From NCBI GenBank assembly GCA_903913865.1, contig CAIWMU010000014.1:1-45328 (forward strand): a stretch of 45,328 nucleotides of DNA, written 5' to 3'. The position numbers and the translations under genes are program-made. Source of the stretch: an uncultured Verrucomicrobia subdivision 3 bacterium (GTDB lineage: Bacteria; Verrucomicrobiota; Verrucomicrobiia; Limisphaerales; UBA8199). The stretch's first letter is position 1; every line of letters starts with the position of its first letter. The notes under the pieces were generated by a model, which saw only the letters and a list, made by a program, of their open reading frames with translations, was not told where the DNA came from and did not search any database. This document shows, in pieces, positions 15,109 through 33,825 of the stretch.

Positions 15109-15885
15109 CTACTTCGAGAGTCGTGAGAGGACTTCCTGAGCCAGCATCTCATAGGCGGCGGCTCCCATATTGTATTTATCGTAGTGAATGATCGGCTTGC
15201 CAAAACTCGGCGCCTCGGCCAGACGGGTCGCTCTCGGGATCAATGTTTCAAACACCTTGTCTTTAAAGTGCTCGCGCACCTCTCCCACCACCTGCTGTGA
15301 AAGGCGGGTCCGTCCATCATACATCGTCATTGCCACCCCAAGCAACTCGAGGCGGGAATTCACCCCTGAATCGTGCAACTGGCTCATCACACGGGTCAGC
15401 ATCGAAATCCCCTCCAGCGCATAGTATTCGCATTGGAGCGGCACAAGAACATAATCGGACGCGGTGAAGGCGTTCAAGGTGAGTATTCCAAGCGAGGGGG
15501 GACAATCGATTACAATCAGGTCATAGTCCTTGGAACTGGCAACGGGAGCCAGCGCATCCGCAACCCGGCGCAGATGGTTCTCAGCCCGTGCCAGTTCGAC
15601 GTCCACTCCACAAAGGTCAACTTCACTCGGAACAATGTGCAGATTCTCGAAAGCAGTCTTTTGAATCTTCGAAGTCAGGGAGCCATCTCCAAGAATCACG
15701 CGATAGGCACTGGCGCCCTCAACCTTCTCCAAACCAACCCCGCTTGTCGCATTGGCCTGCGGATCCAGATCAAAAAGCAGCACCCGCTGCCCCACCGCCG
15801 CAAGGCAGGCAGAAAGATTCACGGAGGTGGTTGTTTTCCCAACCCCGCCCTTTTGGTTCGCAACAGCTACAATTTTTGTCCGCAC
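15109..15885 (-). CDS. parA: ParA/Soj family chromosome-partitioning ATPase
   Basis: A 258-residue deviant-Walker ATPase. NQKGGVGKTTTSVNLSACLA (about residues 9-28) contains the signature lysine of the ParA/MinD class. LLFDLDPQANATSG is switch I (A') and LIVIDCPPSLGILTLNA is Walker B. ParA dimers bind DNA and are released when ParB stimulates ATP hydrolysis. The frame is open to 15972, but homology starts at RTKIVAVANQKGG, so I use the GTG at 15885. The extra 29 upstream codons are unlike the family. No parB gene is adjacent and no parS-type 16-mer was seen, so this is an orphan copy within the window. A TTTCCCG/CGGGAAA inverted repeat lies upstream at 15949-15966. Confidence 0.92.
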   Translation of the reverse strand: MRTKIVAVANQKGGVGKTTTSVNLSACLAAVGQRVLLFDLDPQANATSGVGLEKVEGASAYRVILGDGSLTSKIQKTAFENLHIVPSEVDLCGVDVELARAENHLRRVADALAPVASSKDYDLIVIDCPPSLGILTLNAFTASDYVLVPLQCEYYALEGISMLTRVMSQLHDSGVNSRLELLGVAMTMYDGRTRLSQQVVGEVREHFKDKVFETLIPRATRLAEAPSFGKPIIHYDKYNMGAAAYEMLAQEVLSRLSK

Positions 15886-16041
15886 ACTTTGGAGCTTATT
15901 GAATCCCGCCCCGCATTCAAGCTCCGGCGACGACTTCGAGCAGGTAACTTTCCCGTACCCGGGAAAACCCATACCAAGCCGGACATCTGAGCCCGCCCCC
16001 TCCAGTGGAGACGGTCTCTGGAGTAGCCATCCTTCACAATC

Positions 16042-22706: not shown

Positions 22707-25700
22707 ATGAGACAACTGCTTGCCATCCTCGTAACGGCCCTTTCCCTGACCACCAGCAACGCACAGGTGTTTGTGGGCACAAATAATTCCGATACATCCA
22801 CCATCTTCAGTTTCTCAGTGGGGGCCACCGCAACCAATCTGGCGGTGACTTTGAACGGATCCAGTTCCGCCTACTCCTATCTCATGCTGAAACAGGGGAG
22901 CGCACCGACGGACACCATATATGACTACAGTTCGCAGGATGCTGGAAAGACAAACGGCATCTATCTGGAACTTCCGGAGGTAACCCCTGGCACCTATTGG
23001 GTGCGGGTGCGAACCCCCGCAGCATCACAGGTGCACGCGTTCAACCTGCTGATCGAGACCAACAAGAACAACCTGCGCACACAGAGCCGGCCCGTGAGTA
23101 AAAAGATCGATTCGCTGACCACCGGTTGGATCGCTCCCGGAACCAACCATTATTTCCGTGTGGAGTTCATGACCAACATGTTCTGGAGAATCAGCCTCGA
23201 TTCCACCAATTCCGGCGGTCCGGATCTTTTTGTGGCACGCGGACAACTGCCCACGACCACTTCAAGCCTGAAAAAAGCGATCGGCGGAACCAACGATTCG
23301 GTCGCCTTCACCGCGGCCGAGACGGCTCCCGGAGTCTATTATATTGGTGCGTTCGCGGCAGCGGGGCCGGCCACCGGACTCCGCTATAGCATGCGGATCG
23401 CTCCCGTGACCCCCATAAATATTGACTGGGATCCGGGCACGACCCACCTTGGAACCTTACTCTACTCCAACAGTTCCGGTGCTGCTGATGACTACTACTT
23501 CAGAATCACCACCGCAAATCCCTCCCTCGGCGCCTGGCGAACCGCCCTGCGTCTGTTCAATACGAATGACGCCAACCTCTACGTTAGCCGCGGACTGCTC
23601 CCAACGCCGAGTCTGGCGGATTACAAATCAGAACGGCAGGGTTCGGACGGCTTCATAATTCCCTCCACCACCGGCTTCCTCCCTAGCGAGGAGTGGTTCA
23701 TTCTTGTCCGCACCAAGACAGGATCCTCATGGTCCCTCGTCAGCGGTTCCCCATACGTTCAGGACCTGGGCACTGTGGCGGCCGATGCCTCAAGCGGGAG
23801 TGGTCCCGTGGAGATCGGCCCGGAAGGGATGCGCTATTTTAGCGCAAGCCCCACTGCTGGGATGCTCGCCTGGCGCCTCTACCTCAATGGATTGACAAAC
23901 ACCCTCTACCTAAGAACCAACAGTGTTCCGCTGCCGGCCCTGTTTAACGTAAGCCAGGCCGCCCAGATGCTCGTGGTCCCCCCCTACCTCACAGTGGGAC
24001 AATACTTCATAGGGGTAAGCGGCAATCCCCATGCCATCATCAATCTTGATTCCAGGGAACACACAGTCACAGACCTGACCTTTGGCACCTCCGCCACAGT
24101 GAACAGCAGCGGTTTCGGCTACACGACATACCGTGTGCAGGTTCCGGCCCAACAGATCTCCTGGCAGATTTATCTCCCCTCCACCAACGGCAACCCGAAT
24201 CTGGCGGTCCGGCGCAACATGGTTCCCAACGAGAACAACAATGATGGCTACTCGGAACTGGCCGCAACAAATTTGGTGGATAACATCACCCTCGTCCCCC
24301 CCATCCTGAGCGATGGCACCTTTTACCTCACCGTTTATGCCACCAATCAACTCACCACCAACGCCCACCATTTTGTCCTGCAAAATGGCCCGGCGGTGGT
24401 GACTGACATTCCATACCGCACCACCCTGACCAACAACGACCCCCTCCGCGTCGGTTGGCGCTTCTACCGGGTCACGGACATCCCCGATCAGCTTGGGAGT
24501 CTCGGCTGGGACCTCCTGCTTACAAATTCATCCCCTGGGACCCGCATTGCCCTTCGGCGAAATGCGGCACCAGGAATCTGGTCAGCCCGCAATCCCACCG
24601 TTCCACTTTTGACCTACTATGACATGCTCAGCATCGGTGACTTCCTCCAGCAACCCGCACACGAGGCGGATGTCTGGTATGTGGGCATCTACAACCCCAC
24701 AAACGCCCTGGGGAGTTTCACCCTCACGACACAGGATCTTGAAGCCCAGCCACTGACGAACGGAATCGTCGTCAACCGGACGAATGCCACTAACGCAAAA
24801 TGGGAATTCTTCAGTATTGAGTTGAAGGCGGAGGATCTCCTCCCGGGTGCATCCGGTGGTCCCGTGCTGGGATGGGACGTCCGTCTGACGAACGTGCTTT
24901 CCGGACTGCCAAGGGTGATCGTGAGGCGTGGTGGGTTTCCCACAAATCAGGTTTCCAACTTTACCACCTCCGGATCAACCTGGCCCGGCGGCGGGCAGTG
25001 GGCTGCTGCTGCGGATTGGACCCAGAGAAAGTTCTCAACCGAGGGGACAGATGAGGAAGGCCGCATGCTCGTGGTGGCTGTGAACCACCCGCTCGAGGCG
25101 GGCACATATTATGTCGGTGTCATAAACACCACCGGCACCAACATCATGTCCTACCAACTGCTGAGCCGGTGGATACGTTCCAAGGCATCGCCCCGGGAGA
25201 TTCCCGTGACCGAGCTAGCCTACAGGGGCGGCAGAGCCACGAACTCCCTTTCCGCCCGCGACTCCGCTTATTATAGCGTTGTCATCCCACCCAACTCACC
25301 AAGTTGGAAGGTGAAACTGAGCTGCACCAACGCCGAGGCCCTTCTACTGGTGTCAACAAACAGGATCCCAACGACCATGGGCGACGCCATCAAACGAATG
25401 CAGAAGCTGGAGAACGAGCATTATGTGCTGCTTCCCTCCGGCACGTCCACCTTCATCAACCCTGGAACCAACTACCTCGTCGTTGTCTCCGAAGGGCAAT
25501 CTCCAGCAGACTCGTCCCATGTCGGCACTGATACTAGCGCCTTCACGATCGAGTCCCTCGGCCCCCTACCCGAGACCGATCTCGGCTACCTGATGGGATC
25601 GAATCTGACAGTCACGGGCAGTCTCGAAGGAGGATCCTCTGCCGCATATCATTTTGAAACCCTCACAAGCACGCTGGGATTCTGGCTCACCCTTGAGGAC

Positions 25701-28700
25701 GTCAACGGCTTTCCTGTGATGGTCTGCCGTTCCTCATCCGAACTACCGGACCCCGGCTACACGTCCGACACCTACGGGAATGAGGGCGGAAAAATAACCG
25801 GGGCGGTTGCAAGCCCGCACATGATCATTTCCTCGGGTGCGGCCCCGGTTGAGACAGTCATGGTCAAGGCCCGACAGAGCGGAGCCGATTACCCGGAAGC
25901 AACCTACACACTCAAGGTCGAGGAGATAATTCCCACTCCCTTGGATTTCGACGGTGGCACCTATCAGATTGTTAATCATCCATACGATTACGAGAGTTTC
26001 TTTGCGATTGATGTTCCCACGAATGCTCTTGGCTGGGACCTAAGGCTCACGAACGTCACATCCGGATCTCCCATGATCGTCATCAGCCGTGAATCCCTTC
26101 CCATCTTTACTCAATCCACTGGTTTCATCCCCACGCTGAATAATCCATTCATTGCTACCAACTGGCCCGTCGGTGCCTTGTGGGCTGTGGGAGTTGATTG
26201 GACCGAACGCCCTTTCGGCGAGTATGGAATATTGGAGTCAGGTCGGGTCGTCTCCATGGGGATGAACCGACCGCTTCAGCCGGGCCGCTACTATGTGGGA
26301 GTGATGGGCCGGGATGGAAACCCCGTCTCCTGCACACTGCTCAGCAGGGGACTCGGACTGGGGCACTCCATCCCTGTGGTTGACCTGCCGTTCACCGGCG
26401 GCACGGTCACTTACGAAAACCTCTCCCCCCGCGAGGCTGTTTACTACAGGGTCAATGTGCCCACCAACGCAACCTCCTGGAAAATCACCCTCACAAACAC
26501 CCTCGGCGAAAACCTCTTTGCCGTTCTCAAAGATTGCATTCCCAATATTGGTGCCGCTCTGAACACAAGCACCACGAACTCGGGTGGACGGAAGCTTCAG
26601 AAGATCGGCGATGAGCACTTCACACTCCTCCCGGGTGCCGGTCAGGACAAGCTCATGCCCGGCCCCTACTACATCGCCGTCGTGGGCGAGGGACAGCCGG
26701 GCACAAACCTCACCCAAATCGGGCCGGAATCCAGCAGTTTCCAGATCACCAGTCTGGGCGAAGCTCCCGTCGTGAATCTCGGCACGCTGGGAGCCGCAGA
26801 TCTTGCCAGCACGGACTTCCTCAACGGCGGCGAGACCCGAATTTACACCTTCAGTGTGCCGCCGGGCACGCAGGCATTTGAGGCGCGGCTCGACAACCGC
26901 ATCGGCAACCCCATCATTACCCTTCGCGGGGGCAGCCGCAAGCCGGACCCTGGAGTCAGCAACGGTGGCGCCATCCAGGCCGATCCCTACGGCTCCGATG
27001 GCGGCGAAACCCTCGGCAACGATGTCAACCAGACTCTCATTGCATTTCCCAACCCGACAAACACCCTCTACACACTCGCAATCAAGGCTCGGGGAACTAC
27101 CGGGATCATTGGCACCTACTCCAATGCCTCCTACACCCTCAGGATCAGTTCCAGCTCGACCATCCCGGTGGAGTTTGACGCCGGAGCAGTCGCTATTGCA
27201 AATCAGGCACCCAGTACGTGGCGCTACTTCAAAATAGTTGTTCCGCCCGGGGTTCAGGGTTGGGACGTCCGGCTAACCGATGTCACCAGCGGCCTCCCCC
27301 GGCTGTGCGTCCGGCGGGAGACCATCCCCTCCAGCCTTGTCAGCACTCCATGGGGACAGCCGGGAGTAGGCTTCTTCAATTGGCCGACAAATTATCAATG
27401 GGCCCCCAGCTTTGATTGGACCCGCCGCAGCATGTCAGTCGATGGCCTTACAAGCGAGGATGGCCGTGTGCTGGCAATGGGTCTGGGCCGCCCCCTTGAG
27501 CCCGGAACCTACTTTGTTGGCGTCATGAACTCAACCGCTGGCACTAACATGACCTACACCATTCGCAGCCGCGGTATCGGGGATGGCTATTCCATTCCGC
27601 TCGTCCAGCTGCCGTTCATGGGCACCATCACAAACCTCTCCCTGCCCGCTCGAGAAGCGGCTTATTACCGGATCGTGATTCCATCCAATGCCCCCAGTTG
27701 GAAGCTGAAGCTGGGGTGTCTGGTGGGCGAAACAATGTGCGCTGCTCTCAAGGGATGGCTCCCCAACTTCGACACGATCAATGCAGCGGGCAGCCTTACA
27801 TCCGGTAAGAGCATGCAGAGACTTGGCAACGAGCATTTTGTCCTCCTGCCCGCTTCTGGGCAAACGAACCTCGCTTCCTCCACGAACTATCTGGCCGTCA
27901 TTTCGGAGGGGCTCAACCCGGGGGCATCGGGTCGCATCGGCAGCGGAAGCAGCGCCTACTACATCGCAAGCGTGGGTGCGCTTCCGATCACAGACCTCGG
28001 GACGGTCACTTCGGAAGATCTCGTCCAACCCGACCGGCTCGAAGGCGGTGAGGTCAAAGCTTATCATTTTGACGTTCCAAGCGGGACCTACGGAGTAAAA
28101 CTGCTGCTTGAAGGTCGTTCAGGCAATCCCATGGTCGTCTCAACCCCGGGAGAATATATCCCCGACCCCGGCGCTGCCGCCGGAGGACAATCCACGGATA
28201 CCTACGGTAACGAAGGGGGATACCCTGTAATGGATGGACATCCCGCGATCACCACCATCGCCAACCCCATCCCCGGCACCTATAGCGTGGCCGTAAAAGC
28301 CCGCGGATCCTCCTCGAGCTATCCTGATGCCAGCTACACCCTGCGACTTCAGGAAATTCTGGTCCCCGAGCTGAACTACAGTGCTAACCAGAACACCAAC
28401 GGACTCGCCAGCGAAGTCTCAGGCCTCCTTCAGGACAACGAAAGAGCCTTCTTCAAATTCTACATACCCGCCACCAATGCAAACGGGCAACCGGTCATCG
28501 GCTGGAAACTCGACCTGTCCCAGACCAACGGTCTGGCATCGCTTAGGGTCCGCCGCGACTTCCTCCCAAGCGATGCCAACGCAGCCGGTCAGATGCCGTT
28601 CGCCAGCGGCACCTCTGTCGTCACCCCACCCTACCTCACGAATGGCCTCTGGTTCGTCGAGGTGAAGGCGGTCGGATCCACAGTCTTCACACTCCGCAGC

Positions 28701-30884
28701 AGCCCCGTCCTTCTCCAACGCCCCGCGTGGATCATGCCCGGACCCGGCGAGACAAACCAGGCCCCCGGAGTCATCCAACCCGCGTTCGGGCAAACGGATA
28801 TTGATACGAATGGGCTCCCCGCTCCCAAGATACTGCTCGAGCAGGGCTCCTTCCACTTCTACGGGATCGTCGTGCCGACAAACAATCTGGCCCTGTTAAG
28901 GGCCTCCCTTGTGGCCGTCAGCGGGAACCCGGACCTCTACCTTCGCTACGGTGGAATCCCCACACTCTTCCACAACCTCCAGGGAGTCTCGGGTGCCATC
29001 TATGACCGCTCCATGCTTTCCCCAAACAAGACAGAATACGCCAACTGGGTGCCGTTGGATGGCAAGCTGGAGGCGCAACTCAAACCCGGGCTCTGGTATC
29101 TTGCCGTCAAGGCTGCAGGAAACGCCAATACGGAATACATTTTGAACATGTCGGTGGGGGACATCACAGACCTCCCCCTGAACAACCCCGCATTGAGTGG
29201 TCAGTTGCTTGCCGCAGGGGATTGGCGCTACTACAAAATCCAAACCCCCACCGCGCTGCCGCTCTCACTCAATATCACCTTCAGTCAGGAATCCGGGGAT
29301 GTGGTCATGCATCTGCGGGACAACCTTCCCCCGGGCAACGGGATCGCCGGCACCGATTTCAAGGACTGGTTCAACGACAACAAGAATTTCGGCCCCTATC
29401 CCAATTTCGATCCGCCGGGCACCTACACCGTGTCCGCATCCCCGGTTCGCCCCGGCCAGACTCTTTACCTTGGCTTTAGAGCCTTGAGCGATTCATCCTT
29501 CAGCGTTCGGGTTGCCACCAATGGAGTGCCGGTCCAGGATCCCATCGTCGTCCCATTCTATGGCGGTGCAGGCAACACCACTGTCGGGCCGTTCGCATCC
29601 TCGATCTTCCGGATCGATGTCCCGCCCGAGGCCACCCGCTGGCGTCACGCATCCCAGCACACCACAAACCTCACCGTTTACATTGATCAGGGTACAATCC
29701 CCGGACGCACCAGCACGCGCTGGACCAGTTCCGGCGCGAACAGCGGCTACACAAACATGCTCGTCACATGGGATGCCACCACGAAACAGTACAAGCCCAA
29801 CACATGGCCATGGGTCGCCGGTCAGCCTTACTTTTTCCTCGTCACCAACACTACAGCCGTTCCGCAGAATTTTTCCCTCTTCGCGGACGGAAAGAATGGC
29901 GAAAATGACGATGGTGACTCCGACGGAATGCCGGATCTCTGGGAACTCAGCTACTTCGGTACGACGAACAATCTCGCCACGGCGGATACCGACAACGATC
30001 TTGTGAGCAACTTGCAGGAGTATTTGGAATCGACCGCCCCCTCCGATGCGTCCTCCTTCCGCGCCAGGCTGTTCACGATCGCATCAAGAGGCACCGTCAC
30101 CCGGAACCCGGACCTCCCCAACTATGCTCTGGGCACTTCGGTGACTCTTACACCCGTCCCATCCCCCGGCTATGCCTTCATAGGGTGGTCTCAGGCGGCA
30201 ACGGGCATGGATAACCCCCTTACGATCAGCATGGATGCGCACAAGACCATCACGGCGACCTTCAAACTTGCGGGGGATGATCTGATCACTGCGCTCCAGA
30301 TATCCGGTGGTAGTGTCGTGGCGAACGCCAGCAATGTGAGTTTCACCAAACAGACGGGGGAACCGAACCACGCGGGGAACCCGGGTGGCAAATCCATCTG
30401 GTGGAGATGGGTCGCCCCGACAAGCGGCCCCATCAAGATCAGCACCGCAGGCAGCGCCATCAATACGCTTCTCGGTGTTTACACTGGAACCGCTGTGAAC
30501 GCTCTCACCAAAATAGCTAGCGACAACAATAGCTTGGGAGGAACCAACCGCAGCCAGGTCACCTTTAACGCAACCAGCGGCACGCCCTACCTGATCGCCG
30601 TGGATGGGTATAACGGAGCCTCTGGCAAAATCACAATGGCGCTCGATCTCAGCACCGCAGTCGTTCCACCCACCCTGCGCACTCCGGCCCAACTCGGCAA
30701 TGGCACCTGGCAAATCACCCTTAGTGGCGGCGCCAACCGCAGCTACAAAGTCCAGTATAGTATAAATCTCACGAACTGGATCGATCTGGGAACTGGCATC
30801 ACCGGTGCGGACGGGACGCTGACAATCAACGACCCTGCAGGTCCGGCAGCCCGGGTGCGCTACTATCGGGGACTCACGCAGTAG
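22707..30884 (+). CDS. Giant secreted repeat protein (2,725 aa) with PPC-like and InlB-like domains
   Basis: The signal peptide is MRQLLAILVTALSLTTSNA, so it is exported by Sec. Residues ~25-2390 are a chain of beta-sandwich modules resembling the bacterial pre-peptidase C-terminal (PPC) fold, with recurrent (P/E)-G-x-(Y/W)-(Y/F)-(V/I)-x-V strands and abundant Asn/Thr/Ser. Near 2400 a calcium-loop segment, NDDGDSDGMPDLWE and later DTDNDLVSNLQEYL, resembles thrombospondin type 3/dockerin loops. About 2450-2525 is an InlB-B-like repeat (GYAFIGWS ... KTITATFK). About 2525-2650 is another PPC-like domain (GEPNHAGNPGGKSIWWRW). The last ~70 residues form a small domain (SYKVQYSINLTNWIDLG) common at Verrucomicrobiota C-termini. 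I see no protease or glycosidase active site, so an adhesin or surface scaffold is plausible. Confidence 0.8.
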   Translation: MRQLLAILVTALSLTTSNAQVFVGTNNSDTSTIFSFSVGATATNLAVTLNGSSSAYSYLMLKQGSAPTDTIYDYSSQDAGKTNGIYLELPEVTPGTYWVRVRTPAASQVHAFNLLIETNKNNLRTQSRPVSKKIDSLTTGWIAPGTNHYFRVEFMTNMFWRISLDSTNSGGPDLFVARGQLPTTTSSLKKAIGGTNDSVAFTAAETAPGVYYIGAFAAAGPATGLRYSMRIAPVTPINIDWDPGTTHLGTLLYSNSSGAADDYYFRITTANPSLGAWRTALRLFNTNDANLYVSRGLLPTPSLADYKSERQGSDGFIIPSTTGFLPSEEWFILVRTKTGSSWSLVSGSPYVQDLGTVAADASSGSGPVEIGPEGMRYFSASPTAGMLAWRLYLNGLTNTLYLRTNSVPLPALFNVSQAAQMLVVPPYLTVGQYFIGVSGNPHAIINLDSREHTVTDLTFGTSATVNSSGFGYTTYRVQVPAQQISWQIYLPSTNGNPNLAVRRNMVPNENNNDGYSELAATNLVDNITLVPPILSDGTFYLTVYATNQLTTNAHHFVLQNGPAVVTDIPYRTTLTNNDPLRVGWRFYRVTDIPDQLGSLGWDLLLTNSSPGTRIALRRNAAPGIWSARNPTVPLLTYYDMLSIGDFLQQPAHEADVWYVGIYNPTNALGSFTLTTQDLEAQPLTNGIVVNRTNATNAKWEFFSIELKAEDLLPGASGGPVLGWDVRLTNVLSGLPRVIVRRGGFPTNQVSNFTTSGSTWPGGGQWAAAADWTQRKFSTEGTDEEGRMLVVAVNHPLEAGTYYVGVINTTGTNIMSYQLLSRWIRSKASPREIPVTELAYRGGRATNSLSARDSAYYSVVIPPNSPSWKVKLSCTNAEALLLVSTNRIPTTMGDAIKRMQKLENEHYVLLPSGTSTFINPGTNYLVVVSEGQSPADSSHVGTDTSAFTIESLGPLPETDLGYLMGSNLTVTGSLEGGSSAAYHFETLTSTLGFWLTLEDVNGFPVMVCRSSSELPDPGYTSDTYGNEGGKITGAVASPHMIISSGAAPVETVMVKARQSGADYPEATYTLKVEEIIPTPLDFDGGTYQIVNHPYDYESFFAIDVPTNALGWDLRLTNVTSGSPMIVISRESLPIFTQSTGFIPTLNNPFIATNWPVGALWAVGVDWTERPFGEYGILESGRVVSMGMNRPLQPGRYYVGVMGRDGNPVSCTLLSRGLGLGHSIPVVDLPFTGGTVTYENLSPREAVYYRVNVPTNATSWKITLTNTLGENLFAVLKDCIPNIGAALNTSTTNSGGRKLQKIGDEHFTLLPGAGQDKLMPGPYYIAVVGEGQPGTNLTQIGPESSSFQITSLGEAPVVNLGTLGAADLASTDFLNGGETRIYTFSVPPGTQAFEARLDNRIGNPIITLRGGSRKPDPGVSNGGAIQADPYGSDGGETLGNDVNQTLIAFPNPTNTLYTLAIKARGTTGIIGTYSNASYTLRISSSSTIPVEFDAGAVAIANQAPSTWRYFKIVVPPGVQGWDVRLTDVTSGLPRLCVRRETIPSSLVSTPWGQPGVGFFNWPTNYQWAPSFDWTRRSMSVDGLTSEDGRVLAMGLGRPLEPGTYFVGVMNSTAGTNMTYTIRSRGIGDGYSIPLVQLPFMGTITNLSLPAREAAYYRIVIPSNAPSWKLKLGCLVGETMCAALKGWLPNFDTINAAGSLTSGKSMQRLGNEHFVLLPASGQTNLASSTNYLAVISEGLNPGASGRIGSGSSAYYIASVGALPITDLGTVTSEDLVQPDRLEGGEVKAYHFDVPSGTYGVKLLLEGRSGNPMVVSTPGEYIPDPGAAAGGQSTDTYGNEGGYPVMDGHPAITTIANPIPGTYSVAVKARGSSSSYPDASYTLRLQEILVPELNYSANQNTNGLASEVSGLLQDNERAFFKFYIPATNANGQPVIGWKLDLSQTNGLASLRVRRDFLPSDANAAGQMPFASGTSVVTPPYLTNGLWFVEVKAVGSTVFTLRSSPVLLQRPAWIMPGPGETNQAPGVIQPAFGQTDIDTNGLPAPKILLEQGSFHFYGIVVPTNNLALLRASLVAVSGNPDLYLRYGGIPTLFHNLQGVSGAIYDRSMLSPNKTEYANWVPLDGKLEAQLKPGLWYLAVKAAGNANTEYILNMSVGDITDLPLNNPALSGQLLAAGDWRYYKIQTPTALPLSLNITFSQESGDVVMHLRDNLPPGNGIAGTDFKDWFNDNKNFGPYPNFDPPGTYTVSASPVRPGQTLYLGFRALSDSSFSVRVATNGVPVQDPIVVPFYGGAGNTTVGPFASSIFRIDVPPEATRWRHASQHTTNLTVYIDQGTIPGRTSTRWTSSGANSGYTNMLVTWDATTKQYKPNTWPWVAGQPYFFLVTNTTAVPQNFSLFADGKNGENDDGDSDGMPDLWELSYFGTTNNLATADTDNDLVSNLQEYLESTAPSDASSFRARLFTIASRGTVTRNPDLPNYALGTSVTLTPVPSPGYAFIGWSQAATGMDNPLTISMDAHKTITATFKLAGDDLITALQISGGSVVANASNVSFTKQTGEPNHAGNPGGKSIWWRWVAPTSGPIKISTAGSAINTLLGVYTGTAVNALTKIASDNNSLGGTNRSQVTFNATSGTPYLIAVDGYNGASGKITMALDLSTAVVPPTLRTPAQLGNGTWQITLSGGANRSYKVQYSINLTNWIDLGTGITGADGTLTINDPAGPAARVRYYRGLTQ
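24869..28500 (+). repeat. Three tandem ~400-codon super-repeats inside the giant gene
   Basis: The block starting GWD(V/L)RLT(N/D)V begins near 24869, 26031 and 27258, and a diverged fourth start (GWKLDLSQ) is near 28498. Spacing is about 1.16, 1.23 and 1.24 kb. Each copy continues with a W(P)-x-x-x-x-WA-x-x-x-DWT segment, R(P/L)LEPGTYYVGV, a PREAxYYR(V)xVPxNAxSWK segment, a NEHxxLLP segment and a PDPG...YG(N/S)(E/D)GG loop. The copies have diverged at the DNA level, so the duplication is old. Confidence 0.8.
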
Positions 30885-33402: not shown

Positions 33403-33825
33403 TCACCTCTCCCGGTGCAGAACCGCAAGGCAGGAGAGCCATGTTCCCCCGGCAAGAGCCAGGATCACGAGTAGAATTTCAAACCTTGTGACGGCACCGT
33501 TGGCCCTGCGAATGATCGCGATGGCTTCGCCGGTCAGTATCACGTCCGCCAACACGAGCGAAATCCACAATTTGGACCGCCGAGGAGGTGTTGCAGACGC
33601 AGGGGCCGGGGCCGTCTCCATCTCCAGCACGAGCTCTTCCGCTGGCTCCTTCTGCCCATCCCTGCCAGTGCGCAATAGCGCCTCCATACCCGGAGAAACG
33701 ATCCGCAATGGGAGCGTTTTCTGGCGATCATCATTTTCAGCGGCTGGATCGGGCTGACCTTCAGGGGCCTCAGATGGCCGCCCCAAAAGCTTTCCCAAAC
33801 CGCGCCCAAGTCCTGGTTTCGTCAC
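33403..33825 (-). CDS. Small membrane protein with ParB-like N-terminal peptide
   Basis: A 140-residue protein, GTG start at 33825. Residues 2-15 (TKPGLGRGLGKLLG) closely resemble the N-terminal K-x-G-L-G-R-G-L-x-x-L-L peptide by which ParB proteins contact and activate ParA ATPases. A hydrophilic, Pro/Glu-rich linker (about residues 16-83) follows, then two predicted transmembrane helices (about 86-104 and 115-136) with a short basic turn (RRANGAVTR). No DNA-binding or CTPase part of ParB is present. The start has no Shine-Dalgarno sequence. It is convergent with the POT gene. The function is unknown. A membrane anchor or regulator for a ParA/MinD-type ATPase is a reasonable inference from the peptide alone. 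Confidence 0.65.
   Translation of the reverse strand: MTKPGLGRGLGKLLGRPSEAPEGQPDPAAENDDRQKTLPLRIVSPGMEALLRTGRDGQKEPAEELVLEMETAPAPASATPPRRSKLWISLVLADVILTGEAIAIIRRANGAVTRFEILLVILALAGGTWLSCLAVLHRER

Follow-up and report, generated by a model that had tools for sequence, protein, structure and literature searches.

A small membrane protein with a ParB-type N-terminal peptide in an order of Verrucomicrobiota: a probable membrane-anchored ligand of the chromosomal ParA

The window analysed here, a stretch of 45,328 nucleotides from an uncultured Verrucomicrobia subdivision 3 bacterium, carries at 33403-33825, on its minus strand, a previously unnamed gene with a GTG start. It codes for a small membrane protein of 140 amino acids that has homologues across an order. 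The protein begins with MTKPGLGRGLGKLLG, continues with a linker made of proline, alanine and charged residues, and then forms a hydrophobic hairpin. Two short motifs precede the hairpin. Motif 1, residues 3-14 (KPGLGRGLGKLL; 33784-33819, minus strand), has the form of a ParB-type ParA-binding peptide with its arginine at position 8, and motif 2, residues 43-55 (VSPGMEALLRTGR; 33661-33699, minus strand), resembles a degenerate second copy of the same peptide. The hairpin consists of two predicted transmembrane helices encoded on the same strand, the first at residues 82-109 (33499-33582, from the alignment and the AF2 model), with an invariant Asp94, and the second at residues 114-139 (33409-33486, from the AF2 model). 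The first-pass annotation of this DNA had given the correct coordinates for the frame, to which the minus strand can now be added. It had described a ParB-like N-terminal peptide followed by a flexible linker and two membrane helices, with no other ParB domain, a description that agrees with the peptide at residues 3-14, the low-confidence linker and two helices of the model, and the lack of any Pfam family.

Searches for Pfam and NCBIfam domains gave no match for the window protein, and the weak Pfam matches seen among 37 members of its family include no ParB domain. Judged by its domain content, the protein is not a ParB, because all three ParB domains are missing; it is ParB-like at its tail only. 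Solved structures yielded no convincing relative, and matches to CFTR structures (E 0.005) were rejected as transmembrane-helix noise. The AF2 model, computed from a two-sequence alignment (the window protein and L120), has a mean pLDDT of 59, a low overall confidence at which only the hairpin is reliable: the helix pair reaches about 70-84, the tail and linkers have low values, and short helices are drawn at residues 11-14, in motif 1, and 45-55, in motif 2. Charges on either side of the hairpin provide a weak topology signal. Since ParA is cytoplasmic, we assumed that the N-terminal tail is cytoplasmic too, with the hairpin in the inner membrane.

Clear homologues of the protein were found on searching 58 related genomes, and a profile built from 12 homologues then recovered full-length members across one order of Verrucomicrobiota. 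Counted by hand, they occur in at least about 75 of 245 genomes, belonging to at least 27 GTDB families. Their distribution within the order is patchy: in the window's own family, full-length matches appear in just four genomes (G000, G001, G007 and G008) among the matches listed. No full-length member was seen in a further set of about 195 genomes from the class, nor in a sample of the phylum, among the matches listed, all from the same class; in both, the matches are to the hairpin in larger proteins or to the ParB tail. One full-length relative lies in a metagenome-assembled genome labelled Pedosphaera parvula, with no sequence beyond that of G049; the order is therefore a Pedosphaera-like group of Verrucomicrobiota. 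The homologues range from about 120 to 200 amino acids. In a 37-member alignment G7, L13 and D94 are invariant, K3, L6, R8, L10, G46, L50 and L97 are nearly so, and peptide and hairpin are retained together in every member. Such joint conservation was what the first-pass annotation had proposed to look for, and it extends across an order; the pattern that it had set against its own reading, helices kept and peptide lost, does not occur among the 37. Some members (L088, L096, L099, L107 and L118) have an extra soluble region past the hairpin, such as PEWSVAEK...VIHLKEP, which is absent from the window protein.

The genome has one ParB, on contig C37, with the N-terminus MAKPALGRGLGALLGG and with ParB_N CTPase, HTH_ParB and ParB_C domains. 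In the 27 genomes where the two were compared directly, the N-termini of ParB and of the small protein share K-P-[AV]-L-G-R-G-L-G-x-L-L, in both cases at the very start of the protein. L, G, R, L and L show little or no variation in either set, with K-P upstream in most sequences, and the central position of motif 1 is Arg or Lys in 37 of the 37 homologues. There is one constant difference: the residue before LL is alanine in every ParB compared and almost always polar in the small protein, where alanine appears once in 38 sequences. The peptide is therefore an old copy, separately maintained. Its codons vary freely, with up to six for a given leucine, while the amino acids are fixed, a pattern of purifying selection on the small protein. 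At the DNA level, the pattern K-x-x-LGRGLG-x-L occurs at 51 places in 40 genomes, against a single place for a reversed control pattern. In the window's own genome it matches just two sites, parB and the gene of the small protein; in the other genomes its matches fall at parB or small-protein loci, as assigned by position, some of the loci having been translated. One match, in G030, is evidently due to chance, the degenerate pattern reading F and S there.

The residues held constant in motif 1 are those known to matter in ParB. L6, R8, L10, L13 and L14 correspond to L11, R13, L15, L18 and I19 of Myxococcus xanthus ParB, in which each of the four hydrophobic residues is required for ParA recruitment and fits a pocket at the edge of the ParA dimer, whereas R13 is largely dispensable for binding and required for ATPase stimulation, so that an R13A variant binds ParA and hardly activates it (PMC12462528). 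In Helicobacter pylori, the corresponding Arg9 touches ParA in a crystal structure (PMC11229316). Strong activation of M. xanthus ParA further needs two ParB peptides brought side by side by closure of the ParB clamp (PMC12462528). Motif 2 is present in all aligned homologues, about 35 residues downstream of motif 1, as hydrophobic-x-x-G-[VL]-x-x-L-[LIVM]. There the hydrophobic pattern is retained, and proline or alanine usually replaces the arginine. Two proteins have near-copies of the peptide at this place, L099 (AIGRGLGTLIKG) and L088 (VGRGVGSLLQG). When the motif 1 profile was run along the proteins, motif 2 scored highest in 15 of 37, where 0.34 would be expected, and it stood within the top few windows in most of the rest; the likeness could in part reflect a generic pattern of glycine and hydrophobic residues. 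From the behaviour of the R13A variant of M. xanthus ParB, motif 2 is predicted to be a binding site that does not activate. As the tails of ParB have to be juxtaposed, two motifs on one chain could, we infer, take the place of the clamp.

The hairpin pattern, (W)PFxxADxLLxxxA...LGAxLxxL, is not restricted to the small protein. The family profile matches, at E 4e-11, the hairpin of a protein encoded on contig C200 of the same genome (L090:6865-7764), a GrpE-like membrane protein (GrpE E 7e-8), and it matches the N-terminal hairpins of larger coiled-coil proteins from the same class, outside the order. The hairpin thus resembles a widely used anchor to which a ParB tail has been added. It is also seen in L220-L224, and the coiled-coil proteins outside the order end in a conserved IGIGNK...PGLSW...IGKWRW domain.

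The proposed partner, parA/soj, lies in the window on the minus strand, at 15109-15972 when read from its ATG. The interval 15109-15885 given in the first-pass annotation is right for the form that starts at GTG. The same annotation spoke of an orphan ParA. It is in fact the only Soj-type ParA found in the genome, which also has the ParB of contig C37; the remaining PF13614 matches score far lower, and most of them sit in longer frames. The 17.5 kb that separate parA from the small gene were correctly measured, but such proximity is seen only within the genus: in G001 the two genes are about 8 kb apart, in G107, a single-contig genome, about 1.07 Mb, and their linkage is not conserved. A MinD-like ATPase, which had been offered as the other candidate partner, is unlikely, a search of the genome with TIGR01968 having given nothing above the cut-off, with ParA itself as the best match. 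Nor is there support for the separate positioning system that had been envisaged, ParA being the chromosomal Soj, which works with ParB as well; the small protein is probably a second ligand of this single ParA. A ParA more than 60% identical to that of the window is present in 28 of 30 genomes that have the small protein. G057 and G123, whose assemblies are 82 and 90% complete, have the small protein and gave no Soj-type ParA match. Wherever contigs allow judgement, in G107 and others, parA and parB are unlinked across the order, unlike the usual parAB operon.

The window ParA matches the chain of structure 8ray (E 7e-74), which from its sequence we take to be M. xanthus ParA 21-274 D60A. Mapped by hand, the pocket residues V116, L150, L152, L155, L187 and L192 of M. 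xanthus ParA become V96, L132, I134, L137, L170 and V175 in the window ParA, and Y81, D110 and E117 become Y61, D90 and E97, E82 alone being different (R62). Most of these pocket residues are conserved in the ParAs of the order. The intact pocket, read from this mapping, permits docking of the peptide; its conservation is expected anyway because ParA serves ParB.

Around the small gene, no operon is conserved across 39 loci and the neighbours offer no clue to function, apart from a gene for a SNF2-type helicase of roughly 1,090 amino acids that immediately precedes the small gene on the same strand in six of them (L072, L073, L078, L081, L084 and L086), some of the genes overlapping or nearly abutting. 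In G046 parB is about 3 kb from the small gene, an arrangement not seen elsewhere. In the window, a plus-strand frame at 22707-30884 codes for 2725 amino acids with PPC and InlB-repeat-like domains, probably a large surface protein.

Taken together, these features are best read as those of a membrane-bound ParA contact. The protein is probably a membrane-anchored ligand of ParA, presumably one with two sites, and an activator of its ATPase, built by grafting a ParB tail onto an anchor. The two-helix hairpin would hold it in the inner membrane, leaving a long disordered N-terminal tail on the cytoplasmic side; motif 1 would dock in the hydrophobic pocket at the edge of the ParA-ATP dimer, and its Arg8 would trigger ATP hydrolysis. 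Motif 2 would provide another hold on that symmetric dimer, one that does not activate, and the pair would allow two-site binding without the ParB clamp. ParA meeting the protein would then be released from the nucleoid, or be retained at the membrane in competition with ParB. In the cell, the protein would most likely serve ParA as a sink or an anchor at the membrane, helping to shape the ParA gradient or to keep the nucleoid tethered.

Other readings have to be weighed against a membrane-bound ParA contact. The small protein, or a complex containing it, might itself be a cargo positioned by ParA over the nucleoid, much as TlpT and McdB connect cargo with the ParA-like ATPases that serve them. 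Known partners are indeed modular, with a short N-terminal peptide attached to a cargo- or membrane-binding domain (PMC7993993, PMC10241942), and the extra C-terminal region of L096, L099 and L118 might be seen as fitting such a role, but the gene does not share a conserved operon with any cargo system, and the genome has the chromosomal ParA alone, with no dedicated second one, so that we hold a cargo adaptor to be unlikely. A somewhat smaller likelihood goes to a decoy or inhibitor without any positioning role, which would hold ParA at the membrane out of reach of ParB or of the replication initiator (the Soj-DnaA control). With a shared peptide, the small protein and ParB should compete for one pocket, and motif 2 lacks the activating arginine in most members; the basic residue kept in motif 1 by all 37 homologues, however, points to activation over pure sequestration.

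That the peptide touches something other than ParA is less probable again. A short helix rich in glycine and leucine could also lie on a lipid surface as an amphipathic helix, or the target could be another interactor of ParB, yet the peptide shares its central arginine, its precise LGRGL spacing and its place at the N-terminus with the determinants of ParA binding, and in the window's own genome the motif is otherwise found in ParB only. As for a chance resemblance, or a non-functional fragment of ParB, the shortness and the composition of the peptide might have invited the idea. Its conservation in all 37 aligned homologues and across 27 families or more, its codons varying synonymously, and the reversed-pattern control leave this reading a negligible probability, and we consider chance excluded.

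ParA is usually viewed as working between the nucleoid and ParB. Were the small protein a membrane-bound contact, ParA would gain a second docking site, at the membrane, together with a natural competitor of ParB, and its gradient, or the nucleoid, would be coupled to the membrane. The tandem pair, one peptide with the arginine and one mostly without it, would separate binding from ATPase activation, which until now has been achieved by point mutations such as R13A. We suggest, tentatively and as a possibility that may well fail, that a tandem ParB tail on a generic hairpin lets a single ParA serve both the ParB clamp and a membrane ligand whose two sites are a peptide that activates and another that does not. 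According to one proposal, a partner protein originates when a positively charged N-terminal peptide becomes attached to an interaction domain (PMC7993993); the small protein, if a ParA ligand, would be a natural example of a new partner made in this way. A search of open-licence papers turned up no description of a membrane protein that carries a genuine ParB peptide.

Among known systems, TipN and HubP are large polar landmark proteins with LysM or coiled-coil domains and are not known to carry the ParB peptide. They resemble the small protein as non-ParB interactors of ParA at the cell envelope, HubP being described as a transmembrane protein of the cell pole and an interactor of ParA1 (PMC7333895); they differ from it in that the latter has 140 amino acids, no Pfam match and a ParB-type peptide. 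Noc, a paralogue of ParB that recruits DNA to the membrane, likewise ties the ParB world to the membrane (PMC4331003, PMC8429893), but it is a CTPase that itself binds membrane and specific DNA, whereas the small protein has neither a CTPase nor a DNA-binding domain. With ParB (Spo0J) itself, the likeness lies in the N-terminal KPxLGRGLGxLL, its four hydrophobic residues and central arginine (PMC12462528, PMC11229316); in place of the ParB_N, HTH and dimerisation domains there is a membrane hairpin, with an almost always polar residue before LL and a second, degenerate copy of the peptide. A similar design is found in PomX, McdB, TlpT, ParG and MinE, in which a short, positively charged and disordered N-terminal peptide sits on an unrelated module (PMC7993993, PMC10241942). 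The small protein has such a peptide, with low pLDDT in the model of the window protein and a basic residue in every aligned homologue, and a ParA, with an intact pocket in the window's genome, accompanies it in nearly all genomes compared; the MinD that MinE would call for gave no match above the TIGR01968 cut-off. By contrast with all these activating partners, its module is a transmembrane hairpin and its peptide a genuine ParB peptide, hence its ATPase is probably the chromosomal ParA and not a dedicated one.
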